A DNA stretch of 64,000 nt from Sediminihaliea albiluteola (GTDB lineage Bacteria > Pseudomonadota > Gammaproteobacteria > Pseudomonadales > Halieaceae): positions 310,001-374,000 of the forward strand of contig NZ_JACFXU010000013.1 in assembly GCF_014077625.1 (NCBI RefSeq), in the 5' to 3' direction. The notes beneath the pieces are model-generated. The model searched no databases and had not been told where the DNA came from. It saw only the letters and a program-made list of their open reading frames with translations. This document shows, piece by piece, positions 6,279 to 47,451 of the stretch (position 1 is the stretch's first letter; each line of letters starts with the position of its first letter). The translations under genes and the position numbers were made by a program.

Positions 6279-7135
6279 TGTCACAGTCCTTTAAAGCTTT
6301 AAGCGTAAATGTCGATGAGGATTTGCGCCCGCTCAGTGTTGCCTTATTTCAACGCGGTGTGCGACATCGTATCTATGAAAGTCATGGTCAACAGGTGCTT
6401 ATGGTCGCTGATGAGGCCCAAGTCGATGAAGTTGTGCACTTGTATCGCGCCTGGCGGGCGGGTGAGCTGCGTATTGAGCTAGAGCCTCGTCAGCCACCAG
6501 CGCCCCGGGCTGGTGTAACAGAACTGGCGCGTCAGGCCCCGGTGACTTTGCTGTTGATCCTACTGAGTGTCGCTGGCTTCTTATTGGTCTACCTCAATGC
6601 GCCGCTAGCACTGCTGTCCTTGTTTACTTTTACTCCCTTCACACTCAGCGCTGGGCAGGTATTGTTTGAGCCGCAGGGCAGTGAGTATTGGCGACTTTTG
6701 ACACCTGCCTTCCTGCATTTTGGCTGGTTGCACATTGTGTTTAACAGCCTGTGGATGTGGGAGTTAGGCGCTAAGGTTGAGCGAGCTTTGGGCAGTTTAA
6801 ATATGCTGGGCTTGTTTGTCGTAATAGCGGTCGTCTCCAACTCGGCCCAGTACCTCTTTGGTGGGCCGGCTATTTTTGGTGGGATGTCTGGTGTGGTCTA
6901 TGGCCTGCTGGGCTTTGCTTGGTTGGCAGGGCAGCTGCAGCCCGCCTGGCAGATACAGCCCCGAGCAGGGATCATGTTGTTTATGGTTGGCTGGCTGCTT
7001 ATCTGTGTCTTAGGTGTGGTTGAAGTGCTAGGTTTTGGCGCCATTGCCAATGCTGCGCATATCGGCGGACTCCTCAGTGGCGCCGTCCTAGGTGCCGCTT
7101 TTGGCGCGCTGTCGCGGCTATCGGGCGACAACTAG
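6278..7135 (+). CDS. GlpG-type rhomboid intramembrane serine protease
   Basis: About 285 aa. The N-terminal cytosolic domain (residues 1-90) resembles that of GlpG, followed by six predicted membrane helices. The catalytic serine is in GGMSGVVYGLLG at about residue 200. The catalytic histidine is in NAAHIGGLLSG near 255. The conserved HFGWLHIVFNSLWMWELG marks helix 2. Rhomboids cleave single-pass membrane proteins within the bilayer, and GlpG-type enzymes act in membrane protein quality control. The ATG overlaps the nadK stop by one base. In E. coli glpG sits with glpE/glpR; that context is absent here, so a glp name is not used. Confidence 0.93.
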   Translation: MSQSFKALSVNVDEDLRPLSVALFQRGVRHRIYESHGQQVLMVADEAQVDEVVHLYRAWRAGELRIELEPRQPPAPRAGVTELARQAPVTLLLILLSVAGFLLVYLNAPLALLSLFTFTPFTLSAGQVLFEPQGSEYWRLLTPAFLHFGWLHIVFNSLWMWELGAKVERALGSLNMLGLFVVIAVVSNSAQYLFGGPAIFGGMSGVVYGLLGFAWLAGQLQPAWQIQPRAGIMLFMVGWLLICVLGVVEVLGFGAIANAAHIGGLLSGAVLGAAFGALSRLSGDN

Positions 7136-24841: not shown

Positions 24842-24918
24842 CCGCCCGTAGCTCAGCTGGATAGAGCAATCCCCTCCTAAGGGATAGGTCGCAGGTTCGA
24901 CTCCTGCCGGGCGGGCCA
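24842..24918 (+). tRNA. tRNA-Arg (anticodon CCT)
   Basis: Complete cloverleaf with encoded CCA. The acceptor CCGCCCG pairs with CGGGCGG (24908-24914). The D-arm is GCTC/GAGC, the anticodon stem ATCCC/GGGAT, and the loop CTCCTAA with CCT at 24876-24878. The T-arm is GCAGG-TTCGACT-CCTGC. It reads AGG codons. The discriminator is G, as expected for tRNA-Arg. This isoacceptor is a frequent integrase target, and the DNA just downstream looks like an element scar. Confidence 0.97.
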
Positions 24919-24974
24919 AAACCCCAGTAAAATCAACTGCTTGTCTTGGCGACTCCTTGCTAACTTTTGTTGGT

Positions 24975-24994
24975 AGTGGCCAGTTAGTGGCCAG
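24975..24994. repeat. Short direct repeat beside tRNA-Arg
   Basis: AGTGGCCAG occurs at 24975-24983 and again at 24986-24994, an 11-bp period, 57 bp past the tRNA 3' end. Similar TGGCCAG arrays sit next to integrase genes at tRNA sites in other genomes (recollection, not verified). No integrase remains here. Confidence 0.5.
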
Positions 24995-24999
24995 ACAAA

Positions 25000-25164
25000 A
25001 TGCAGGGCTTCAAGGCGCTGCATAGTTATCGGGTGGTAGGCATTTCTATCTACCCTAGAGATGGCGCAGATGTTGACACCCTAATCAGAAAGGTAGACGA
25101 GGCGATGTATGCTGCTAAAAATAGCGGTAAAAACGCTTATCACTCTGCCAGTAGTCATTGCTAG
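25000..25164 (+). pseudogene. C-terminal remnant of a GGDEF diguanylate cyclase
   Basis: A 54-codon frame from ATG 25000 to TAG. Residues 13 to 45 read VVGISIYPRDGADVDTL then IRKVDEAMYAAKNSGKNAY, the canonical last two secondary-structure elements of a GGDEF domain. The catalytic GG(D/E)EF loop and everything upstream are missing. In-frame sequence upstream stops at a TAG at 24985-24987. It therefore cannot make c-di-GMP. It lies between tRNA-Arg and ilvB with no partner gene, consistent with the debris of a deletion or an excised island. It has no ribosome site at the ATG and is probably not translated. Confidence 0.85.
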
Positions 25165-25212: not shown

Positions 25213-27081
25213 TTAAATATTACTGCCTTGCTGTTCGCTGTTTGCGCCGGCTAAATCCTCATCACTCATAATGATGTCGTGATAGCTGCCACCAGCGGGA
25301 ATCATCGGATACACGTTTTCTTCGGGGGCTACGATGACGTCGAGCAGGTAGGGTTCATCCGGGTCGGCGAGCATACGGGTAAAGGCGGCGTGTAAGTCTT
25401 CTTTGCGAGTTACCCGCGCTGAGCTGACTCGGTAACCTTCGGCTATTATTAAAAAATCAGGGTAGATATCTTCCTCTCCATCAGCTTTTACTGAGCAGAA
25501 TGGGTCTGAAAGTGAGGAGCTGGCGCGGTTTTTTTGATAAATCATGTCTTGCCACTGCCGCACCATACCCAGCCATTGGTTATTAATAACGACTACCTTG
25601 ACGCCCAGTTTAAAACGATGGCAGGTGGCTAATTCATGTACGGTCATATTCAGCGAGCCGTCGCCATCAATGTCAATAACGCAGCGCTCAGGAAAGGCAG
25701 CTTTGGCGCCGATGGCGGCGGGTAAGCCGTAACCCATAGTGCCAAAGCCTGAGCTGCTTAAAAAAGATCGGGGTCGGGTTGACTGATAGTGCTGCATGGC
25801 CCACATCTGGTGCTGACCAACACCTAGACTGACGATGGCATCGCCTTTAGTGATTTGTGACAACATAGCTATGGCAAATTGTGGGCTGATAAGATCGCTT
25901 TGCGGTACAGGATAAGGCCAGTCTTGTTTCCACTTTGTTACCTGCTGGCACCACTCGCGTTGCTGGCATGCTTCACTGCCAGCAACTAATTGCTGCAGAG
26001 CTAGGCGAACGTCAGCACAGATGGGCAGGGTGACGGCTTTGTTTTTATTGAGTTCTTTGCGATCTATATCAATATGGATGATGCGCCCGTCTTGTATAAA
26101 CTCCTCTACATTCCCAGTTACTCGGTCGTCAAAGCGCACCCCTACGGCAATAACCAGGTCGGCTTTATTGATCGCGGTGTTGGCGTATTTAGAGCCGTGC
26201 ATACCCAGCGTATGCAGTGCCAGTGGGTGATCTGGTGGAAAGCTGCCGTGGCCCATTAAAGTCGTCGTTACGGGTATTTGGCACAGTTGTGCCAGTTCTA
26301 ATAATTCGGCCTCGGCCTTGGCGCTGGCAATACCGCCGCCGGCATAGAGTACGGGGCGCTGCGCCTCTTTTATCATGCGCAAGGCCTGTTCAAGTTGCGT
26401 TGGGCTAATACGGGCCCGAGCTGGCTCGGGTGGCTCTATTACGGCAGGAATGCGGGGAGGGGTGTAGTTGCCCTCCGAGTCCCGGGGGTAGTGTTGTTGT
26501 ATATCTTTGGGTATGTCTATCAAAACCGGGCCAGGGCGATTGCCGCCGGCAATGGCAAAGCTTTCGCGTACAATTTCAGGAATATCGAATACTTTGCTGA
26601 CGAGATAGTTTTTCTTGGTGATGGGTTCAGTAACGGCAACGATGTCGACTTCCTGAAATGCATTCTTGCCCAATAAGTGGCTGGGGACATTGCCGGTGAT
26701 ACAGACAATACCCACTGAGTCACTCATGGCATCGGCAATACCGGTAACCAAGTTGGTGGCGCCGGGTCCCGAGGTGGCTAGGCACACGCCAACTTTACCC
26801 GTGCTACGGGCAAAGCCCTGTGCCGCGTGAACAGCGCCTTGCTCGTGTTCTGTGCGAATACAGCGGATGCCAAATTCGGCTAGCACATCGAAAATTTCAA
26901 GATTGGCGCCGCCGGGGTAGCCAAAAATCAGATCAACGCCCTCGGCTTGTAATGCCTTGGCCAAGAGCTGTGCGCCACGTAGTGCAAGGTTGCGCTGTTT
27001 GGCACTAATGTCGCTGAGAGCGCTGCCGCTGACTGTGCCTTGATTGGCGTAGGTGACATCATCCACGGAGTGATTAGTCAT
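25213..27081 (-). CDS. ilvB: Acetolactate synthase large (catalytic) subunit
   Basis: 622 aa ThDP enzyme making acetolactate/acetohydroxybutyrate for valine, leucine and isoleucine. The catalytic glutamate is in IRTEHEQGAVHAAQGFA. The FAD-linked middle domain has VGVRFDDRVTGN. The ThDP-Mg motif is GDGSLNMTV...VVINNQWLGMVRQWQ. The C-terminal YPMIPAGGSYHDII ends like IlvB/IlvI. The ATG at 27081 has AGGA 8 bp before it; a start at 27102 is an alternative. About 35 residues precede the conserved domain, a little longer than usual. No ilvN/ilvH regulatory subunit or ilvC is adjacent, unlike the common ilvBN or ilvIHC order, so its small subunit must be encoded elsewhere or absent. Confidence 0.94.
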   Translation of the reverse strand: MTNHSVDDVTYANQGTVSGSALSDISAKQRNLALRGAQLLAKALQAEGVDLIFGYPGGANLEIFDVLAEFGIRCIRTEHEQGAVHAAQGFARSTGKVGVCLATSGPGATNLVTGIADAMSDSVGIVCITGNVPSHLLGKNAFQEVDIVAVTEPITKKNYLVSKVFDIPEIVRESFAIAGGNRPGPVLIDIPKDIQQHYPRDSEGNYTPPRIPAVIEPPEPARARISPTQLEQALRMIKEAQRPVLYAGGGIASAKAEAELLELAQLCQIPVTTTLMGHGSFPPDHPLALHTLGMHGSKYANTAINKADLVIAVGVRFDDRVTGNVEEFIQDGRIIHIDIDRKELNKNKAVTLPICADVRLALQQLVAGSEACQQREWCQQVTKWKQDWPYPVPQSDLISPQFAIAMLSQITKGDAIVSLGVGQHQMWAMQHYQSTRPRSFLSSSGFGTMGYGLPAAIGAKAAFPERCVIDIDGDGSLNMTVHELATCHRFKLGVKVVVINNQWLGMVRQWQDMIYQKNRASSSLSDPFCSVKADGEEDIYPDFLIIAEGYRVSSARVTRKEDLHAAFTRMLADPDEPYLLDVIVAPEENVYPMIPAGGSYHDIIMSDEDLAGANSEQQGSNI

Positions 27082-27277
27082 AGAGAGTCCTGTTATGAGC
27101 AAATTGAGGGCAGCTTGGAGACCGCCTGAGCTTCATCTGTATGATGCGGGCTGCCTTAAATACCTCACTGTTGGCGCGAGAGCGCATGTGTTGCAGCAAT
27201 TACCCACAGCTCAACAGCCATTCTGCCAGCAGCTACAGTTGTCTATTACTCTGCAAAAGCTTGCTAGTACTGTAGCG

Positions 27278-45486: not shown

Positions 45487-47451
45487 GTGCCTGCAGAGAT
45501 AGAGAGTGTTACCTTTGTCTCTCAGGCTAGCCACAGGAGTGCCTTCTTGCCTAAACATTCAGTAGATGTTGTTGTCGTCAGTGCCGACACAGACTTTCGA
45601 CAAAGCTTAATTGCTGCGCTGATGCGCGTTGCAGCACAAGATAGCCGTGAGGACAGTACTTGTGACCTGCAGTTTCTGTCAGCAGACTCCAGCACTGCAA
45701 CGCTGGATATCGCCCGTGATAACGGCAATCTGCAGGCGATTGTCATCGACGCGCCAGCCATCGCCGATACCCCGCAATTGCTCAGTGAGCTAGAGCAGAT
45801 TCGCCCAGAGCTCGATCGTTTTCTAATGATCGAGGATGACAGCCAGGTGCCGGATATCGCTGTGGAGTTGTTGGATCGACAGGACAGTAAGCCCAGCCAA
45901 CTGTTCCGGCAAGTGCGCAACGCGATACAAGCGCGTATCCGAACCCCATTCGCCGATACTCTGCGCGACTATGTCTACAGTGCTAAAGACGCTTGGCATA
46001 CCCCCGGCCACTCCGGGGGTGACAGTTTGCGGGACAGCCCATGGGTTGCTGATTTTTATCAGCTGATGGGTGAGCATATATTCAATACCGACTTATCGGT
46101 ATCGGTGCAGACACTGGACTCCTTGCTGGAGCCCCATAGTGTGATTCAAGAGGCCCAGGATTTGGCCGCGGAAACCTTTGGGGCCAAGCATACATTTTTT
46201 GTCACTAATGGCACCTCGACCGCCAACAAAGTCATTATCCAGCATCTGCTTGGTGCCGGTGGCAAAGTGATTCTCGATCAGGCTTGCCATAAATCGGTGC
46301 ACCATGCGGTTATTTTATTTGGCGCTGAGCCGGTCTACCTCCAGGCCTCGGTAAAAACACAGTACGGATTTTATGGCCCTGTGCCGGCCGAGCGCGTCTT
46401 TAAGGCCATGGATACTCACCCAGAGGCCAAGCTGCTGGTTCTCACCTCCTGCACCTACGATGGCTTTCGCTACAACTTAAAGCCCATTATTAGCCGGGCC
46501 CATGAGCTGGGTATCAAAGTGTTGATTGATGAGGCTTGGTACGCTCACGGCCGCTGTCATCCGGCGTTTCGCCCCAACGCGATCGACAGTGGCGCAGACT
46601 ATGTCACTCAGAGTACCCATAAAATGCTCTCTGCTTTCTCGCAGGCCAGCATGATTCATGTGGCGGACCCTGATTTTGATGAGCACCGCTTCCGTGAAAA
46701 CTTAAATATGCACACCTCCACCAGCCCGCAGTACGCCATGATTGCCAGTTTGGATGTGGCGCGTAAGCAGGCCAGCTTAGAAGGTTATTCCCAGATGTCG
46801 CGCTGTTTGAGAATTGCCGCGCGTTTACGGGAAGGCATTAAGCGCAGCGGCGTGTTTAGAGTGCTGGACTTAGAAGATATTTTGCCACTAGAGCTGCGTG
46901 ATGATGGCATTAGTCTGGATCCCTTAAAGCTGAGTATTGATACCTCGGCTTCGGGCATGAGTGCACGTCAAGTTCAGTTGCAGCTCTACGAAGATTTTGG
47001 CATACAAATTGAAAAGGTTACCCACAATACACTGACCGTACTGGTGACATTGGGGGCCACCCAGAGCAAAGTGTTGCGCCTGATTAATGCCTTACAAAAA
47101 ATAGCCACTAGGGTAGGGCGTGGTGAAAGTGATGACACAGAACCCTTAATTGTGGAATTACCGCCCCTAAGTGATTTTGCTCTATTGCCGCGCACAGCCT
47201 ATTTTAGTCCTTCAAAAGTTGTCATGTTGGCAGAGGAAGCTGGCGGTATTAATCGACAGCTAATAGGACGAGTGAGTAGCGAGCAGGTGGTGCCCTATCC
47301 GCCGGGTATCCCAGTGCTGAACCCAGGCCAGGTGATTACTGCGGAAATCGCCAGTTTTCTGTTGGCGCAATACCGCAGCAACAACGGTATCGAGTTGCAC
47401 GGTTTACTAGAGCGTCGGGAAAAACCTTGCCTGAGGGTGGTAGAAGAATAA
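45487..47451 (+). CDS. PLP-dependent amino-acid decarboxylase (Orn/Lys/Arg class)
   Basis: 654 aa, fold-type I. An N-terminal receiver-like wing domain (VDVVVVSADTDFRQSLIAAL, residues about 25-150) precedes the PLP domain. The histidine stacking on PLP is in DQACHKSVHHAV. The aspartate is in VLIDEAWYAHG. The PLP lysine is in TQSTHKMLSAFSQ near 378. The C-terminal domain closes the protein (YPPGIPVLNPGQVIT). It decarboxylates ornithine, lysine or arginine to a polyamine precursor; I cannot choose among them. GTG start, 24 bp after the acyltransferase, with weak ribosome site. The pyridoxal motifs and GIPVL-PG match the biodegradative group. Confidence 0.9.
   Translation: MPAEIESVTFVSQASHRSAFLPKHSVDVVVVSADTDFRQSLIAALMRVAAQDSREDSTCDLQFLSADSSTATLDIARDNGNLQAIVIDAPAIADTPQLLSELEQIRPELDRFLMIEDDSQVPDIAVELLDRQDSKPSQLFRQVRNAIQARIRTPFADTLRDYVYSAKDAWHTPGHSGGDSLRDSPWVADFYQLMGEHIFNTDLSVSVQTLDSLLEPHSVIQEAQDLAAETFGAKHTFFVTNGTSTANKVIIQHLLGAGGKVILDQACHKSVHHAVILFGAEPVYLQASVKTQYGFYGPVPAERVFKAMDTHPEAKLLVLTSCTYDGFRYNLKPIISRAHELGIKVLIDEAWYAHGRCHPAFRPNAIDSGADYVTQSTHKMLSAFSQASMIHVADPDFDEHRFRENLNMHTSTSPQYAMIASLDVARKQASLEGYSQMSRCLRIAARLREGIKRSGVFRVLDLEDILPLELRDDGISLDPLKLSIDTSASGMSARQVQLQLYEDFGIQIEKVTHNTLTVLVTLGATQSKVLRLINALQKIATRVGRGESDDTEPLIVELPPLSDFALLPRTAYFSPSKVVMLAEEAGGINRQLIGRVSSEQVVPYPPGIPVLNPGQVITAEIASFLLAQYRSNNGIELHGLLERREKPCLRVVEE

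Follow-up and report, generated by a model that had tools for sequence, protein, structure and literature searches.

The DNA analyzed here is a stretch of 64,000 nucleotides (the window), and the locus of interest begins with an intact tRNA-Arg(CCT) gene at 24842-24918 on the forward strand. ARAGORN calls no other tRNA in the window. An integrated element would presumably have used the 3' end of this gene as its attachment core. On the same strand, a pattern scan found an exact match to WATCAANNNNTTR, which we take to be the IHF consensus, at 24931-24943. This is followed by a 30-bp segment at 24965-24994; a similarity search of the genome found it again, at 97% identity, at C9:214716-214745. 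The segment includes an 11-bp tandem unit at 24974-24994, TAGTGGCCAGT, reported by TRF as 1.9 copies with a 100% match, such that the 9-mer AGTGGCCAG occurs at 24975-24983 and again at 24986-24994. We presume these units to be integrase arm-type sites of a P' arm.

Beyond the repeat lies a junction of ~40 bp (24995-25035, forward strand), in which inspection of the forward frames and searches that gave no informative match left no recognized homology, and which would contain the breakpoint of a presumed deletion. It is followed on the forward strand by the 3' tail of a 5'-truncated GGDEF (diguanylate cyclase) gene, stop codon included, at 25036-25164 (Pfam match). The next gene, which is ilvB-like by its open reading frame and Pfam match, occupies 25213-27102 on the reverse strand and ends at 25213. 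The initial annotation had described a tRNA-Arg(CCT), a double repeat and a 54-codon frame encoding only the end of a GGDEF domain, and all three were confirmed by ARAGORN, TRF and Pfam. It was also correct in placing the repeat downstream of the tRNA, though not "right after" it, as the repeat starts 55 bp past the tRNA.

A truncated GGDEF gene

The open frame at 25000-25164 on the forward strand has 54 codons. Residues 13-45 of the frame (25036-25134) match positions 127-160 of the 161 positions of the Pfam GGDEF profile PF00990 with an E value of 1.5e-6, which is above the gathering score. The GG[D/E]EF loop sits in the middle of the domain. Since only profile positions 127-160 are present, the part with the loop is absent, as the initial annotation had stated in calling the catalytic loop gone. 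What we found is therefore a gene fragment and not a complete GGDEF domain with its GG[D/E]EF loop. Between the tRNA and the ATG of the frame there are stops in all three forward frames, and no GGDEF sequence was recognized there by eye. The residual tail would be unable to form an enzyme and is presumably not a working protein.

A conserved short frame in relatives, which the initial annotation had named as a finding that would speak against a scar, was not observed: at E 1e-9 the tail had no match in the 139 other family genomes searched. At 1e-6, matches were found in 40 of 58 genomes including its own, and all except that of the window lie in frames of at least 397 aa. The 17 other matches to the tail in its own genome are all in open frames of at least 349 aa. 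A recent duplication of one of the genome's own genes was rejected, as the best of these other matches reaches 46%.

In one scan of GTDB species genomes, 45 loci were confirmed, the best of which (L136, Marinobacter salexigens) matches at 71% over 41 residues and belongs to a 484-aa MASE1-GGDEF protein. At the DNA level, the tail and this gene are 82% identical over 33 codons, with 18 differences distributed 3, 2 and 13 over codon positions 1, 2 and 3. Because the differences are mostly in the third position, most of the divergence appears to have arisen under coding constraint. From these comparisons the GGDEF piece looks foreign to the family, 33 codons being too few for a tree. The 12 kb examined at the Marinobacter locus contain no tRNA, nor was an integrase recognized by eye, and the locus thus gives no support for the cyclase having been cargo. 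Phage records contained no match to the tail, and 245 plasmid records matched it at 1e-3, at least five of them at 60-80% identity.

We also considered the tail as an old neighbor of the ilvB-like gene. This was rejected: in 10 relatives with the gene at 70-74% identity, there was no 1e-6 match to the tail within ~190 kb of the gene or on its contig (several of these contigs are short). In addition, for each of the 10 relatives the 1.5 kb downstream of the ilvB-like gene was inspected by eye, and its three longest frames showed no recognizable GGDEF protein.

The tandem repeat and integrase genes beside tRNAs

A scan of viral contigs for GTGGCCANTTNGTGGCCA returned 16 loci. An integrase gene was beside the repeat in only two of these (L254 and L243), and none was seen at the other 14. 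On the viral contig L254, a tRNA-Pro is followed by 55 bp, then GTGGCCACTTAGTGGCCA, then 10 bp and the end of a 365-aa integrase gene; the repeat is made of 11-bp units of the TAGTGGCCACT type. The integrase is of the lambda type: its sequence matches PF00589 at E 3.5e-18 and, at E 5.5e-9, PF09003, the lambda arm-binding domain. At L243, 4 bp separate such a repeat from the end of a gene for a PF00589 integrase. The L254 integrase has 28 relatives, for which 15 loci were inspected, 14 of them with DNA beyond the gene. At seven of the 14 (one being the L254 contig), three 10-11-bp units run from the stop codon on and are followed by tRNA-Pro sequence, the tRNA being recognized partly by eye.

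Similar arrangements occur in the same family as the window. In one family member (L035), an intact PF00589 integrase gene has, within its 3' end, an 11-bp tandem repeat that lies 66 bp downstream of a tRNA-Arg(CCG). In a second (L016), an 11-bp tandem unit at 1632-1650 lies 54 bp past a tRNA-Arg(CCT), and at L032 a repeat lies 67 bp past a tRNA-Arg(CCG). No integrase was recognized at L016 or L032 before the contigs end, 708 and 270 bp downstream, respectively; L016 is maybe another scar. By eye, 11-bp-spaced units and a tRNA-like stretch follow the integrase gene at a Pseudomonas phage locus, and neither was seen at a Marinobacter phage integrase locus. Other searches were less productive. 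The single match of one viral pattern scan had no tRNA or integrase recognizable by eye, another scan gave 40 loci, most of them inside long open frames and all lacking a tRNA, and a further scan gave zero matches. A 101-base query containing the repeat had one plasmid match at E 3, which was disregarded.

The tandem units in the window are 55 bp past the tRNA, the same distance as at L254 (66 bp at L035), and from this shared anatomy they are probably integrase arm-type sites. The putative IHF site at 24931-24943 lies between the tRNA, as presumed core, and the tandem repeat. Exact matches to the IHF consensus number 5 in the window versus 1.6 expected. Two overlapping exact matches on opposite strands are also present at 46512-46527.

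To place numbers on the repeat itself, its 20-mer occurs once in the window, with 0.02 occurrences expected by chance (at most 3 mismatches); the single 9-mer is less special, with 5 occurrences versus 0.85 expected. We examined 46 tRNAs at 32 loci picked by similarity to tRNA-Arg(CCT), two of the tRNAs having less than 100 bp of flank. A period-11 repeat was found downstream of four (window included) and upstream of none, and all four cases are 54-67 bp from their tRNA. A period of 13 was also seen three times downstream of these tRNAs. Intergenic DNA contains 11 period-11 repeats per 106,961 bases, two of which are the copies in the window's own genome, and this background predicts ~0.75-0.9 such repeats in the 8,900 bases of tRNA flank. 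It was used in place of a mostly coding background (4 period-11 repeats in 479,254 bases), which is too favorable. The repeat statistics are weak on their own and no more than suggestive; the case rests on matching anatomy.

A second copy in the same genome

At up to 3 mismatches, the repeat 20-mer occurs in its own genome at two places, the tRNA-Arg locus and C9, and there is no third. The two copies align in blocks, starting ~45 bp before the window repeat. The C9 copy is also preceded by an exact IHF consensus (6663-6675 of the 14-kb locus L191, by eye), both copies thus carrying the consensus on the tRNA or core side. It is flanked by an hsdM/hsdS gene pair and by a gene that is sirtuin-like by eye. 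ARAGORN called no tRNA in the 14-kb locus, no integrase was recognized there either by eye or with five integrase queries at 1e-3, and the two Rfam matches in the C9 region are both far below the gathering score. The second copy is possibly a second island scar. In the same locus, where the IHF site and repeat together span 6663-6746, a stretch resembling a tRNA 3' end was noticed by eye at 6513-6537 on the opposite strand, ~130 bp away.

Gene neighborhood and missing parts

In the window, a gene of the F420 type lies 177 bp upstream of tRNA-Arg(CCT). In two relatives (G015 and G002), ~15 kb of genes lie between the orthologue of this gene and tRNA-Arg(CCT), and next after the tRNA comes a TetR gene in convergent orientation; this gene is 59.5% identical between the two and has no tblastn match in the window at E 1. 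From this context, the tRNA would seem to be native and the sequence downstream of it to have changed in the window.

Five integrase queries at 1e-3 recovered no integrase remnant from the window. Because there is no integrase gene next to the arm sites, we refer to the locus as an orphan remnant and not as a working attL. No second copy of the core was found in the window. A genome-wide search for the core gave only another tRNA-Arg, the T-arm of a tRNA-Gln and two short matches (14 and 18 bp) that look like chance. The window has two repeat units versus three in the phage loci. The motif at 11-bp spacing is present in 14 of 390 genomes of the order. Since the 13 places outside the window's own genome are all in open frames of more than 300 codons, and none is beside a tRNA, no intact element with exactly these arms was seen among the 390 genomes.

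An orphan attachment site as the likely origin of the locus

The locus is likely to be an orphan attL in which the end of a lost tyrosine-integrase element on the tRNA side has been joined by a deletion to the tail of a diguanylate cyclase gene. This reading follows from the tRNA 3' end, the IHF consensus and the arm-type repeats, which match integrase loci in order and spacing. What is observed directly is the set of parts and the order in which they stand, the second copy in the genome, and loci elsewhere in which this architecture is accompanied by integrase genes. In such a scenario, an element with a tyrosine integrase would have inserted at the 3' end of tRNA-Arg(CCT) and left the tRNA intact. 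In elements of this kind, tandem arm-type sites are bound by the N-terminal part of the integrase and the core by its catalytic part, and IHF bends the intervening DNA. The junction on the tRNA side (tRNA, IHF site and arm sites) would have persisted, and the remainder of the element, integrase gene included, would later have been lost by a deletion. Precise excision would remove the arm sites as well, and for this reason a deletion of another kind is proposed. Its right end would fall inside the diguanylate cyclase gene, leaving the last codons (~43 with the stop). The suggestion in the initial annotation that the tRNA had been an integrase target is well supported by the repeat, the IHF consensus and their spacing, which match integrase arms beside tRNA genes. 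Its further proposal, that an island or neighboring gene was deleted and left a non-functional tail, appears largely right as to the scar and is partly supported, the deletion itself being deduced from what is left, as a search of the genus extended to a single genome, that of the window.

It is unlikely that the arrangement is a coincidence in which an unrelated rearrangement set the GGDEF fragment by the tRNA and the tandem repeat is unrelated noncoding DNA. Repeats of this grade do occur at ~10 per 100 kb of intergenic DNA, and the failure to find an integrase remnant or a second core is in keeping with this explanation. A GGDEF gene near this tRNA also needs no scar, as in another family member (L030) an apparently complete GGDEF gene on the opposite strand ends beside tRNA-Arg(CCT) (by eye). 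Against coincidence, the type of unit, its period and its distance from the tRNA equal those of integrase-bearing loci, an IHF consensus lies between, and the second copy has the same layout.

There is a very small chance that the repeat marks one end of an insertion sequence (of the IS21 family, for example) and that this IS eliminated the 5' portion of the GGDEF gene. Repeated transposase sites are a feature of IS21 ends, and the motif does have a second copy in the genome. However, there is no IstB match at 1e-40 in the window's own genome. Likewise, no two GTGGCCA motifs lie within 45 bp of each other in the 30 loci fetched, of 37 IstB loci from 97 genomes. An IS21 end was thus rejected as far as these loci reach; they may lack left IS ends, and they cover the IS21 family alone.

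Equally improbable is that the element is still present to the right (the ilvB-like gene and beyond) and that only its integrase has been lost. The ilvB-like gene was not beside tRNA-Arg(CCT) in the relatives examined, which speaks for this reading, but no duplicate of the core lies rightward in the window. Nor is the ilvB-like gene obviously foreign, as genes 70-74% identical to it are present in 10 of the 36 other family genomes searched.

It is most improbable that the 54-codon frame encodes a working small protein and that the locus is no scar. In favor of this, no stop interrupts the frame, and conserved residues of the GGDEF C terminus are retained. However, no ribosome-binding site is seen before the ATG by eye, 43 stop-free codons are expected by chance in ~1/8 of cases (hand calculation), and there is no counterpart at 1e-9 among the 139 other family genomes, the 1e-6 matches in relatives being in frames of at least 397 aa.

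Comparison with known attachment sites

The orphan attL reading has parallels in characterized systems. In lambda attL, integrase bridges the core and arm sites while IHF bends the DNA between them, as outlined in PMC4880445. The order of core, IHF site and arm sites described there for a lambda-type prophage attL is that of the window, and the same function may be inferred. The window differs in having no integrase or prophage, in that its presumed core is the 3' end of tRNA-Arg, in having two units and in that binding is predicted only. At the KplE1 prophage attL, located at the E. coli argW tRNA, arm sites beside the tRNA core have been worked out and IHF is used in excision, according to PMC2951348. 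As in the window, a tRNA 3' end serves as core and integrase arm-type sites are just downstream. In contrast, the integrase promoter of KplE1 overlaps attL in that account, whereas the integrase genes of L254 and L035 have their 3' ends toward the tRNA, and the window has no such gene. In Cluster K mycobacteriophages, the predicted integrase arm sites are 11-bp repeats that occur in pairs close to a core within a tmRNA or tRNA gene, as described in PMC3203893; there the sequence and hosts are other and the phages intact.

As for the cyclase, its place as island cargo or as a flanking gene is a choice in which we lean slightly to cargo. Vibrio genomic islands reported in PMC10672970 carry diguanylate cyclases, a precedent for GGDEF cargo in marine gammaproteobacteria. 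The Vibrio island cyclases described there are intact, whereas the window has a 3' fragment only, whose status as cargo is presumed at most.

Junctions of lost elements are hard to see because the integrase, their usual marker, is gone. At this locus the tRNA, the IHF consensus and the 11-bp arm repeats can all be read side by side, pointing to a simple way of searching for elements that have come and gone. It is an ordinary kind of genome scar, unusually readable; it would record a lost, probably foreign diguanylate cyclase, and if the reading is true, no principle is changed. We give very little credence to the idea that the two orphan half-sites, at the tRNA-Arg locus and on C9, have been retained because they still bind IHF or an incoming integrase, serving as landing pads or decoys and so steering where the next element of the same integrase kind inserts.

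With regard to the gene beside the proposed scar, the genome has two ilvB genes. The other, on C10, is 45% identical to the window copy, and its relatives were found widely. The window copy may thus represent a paralogue that only some members of the family have.
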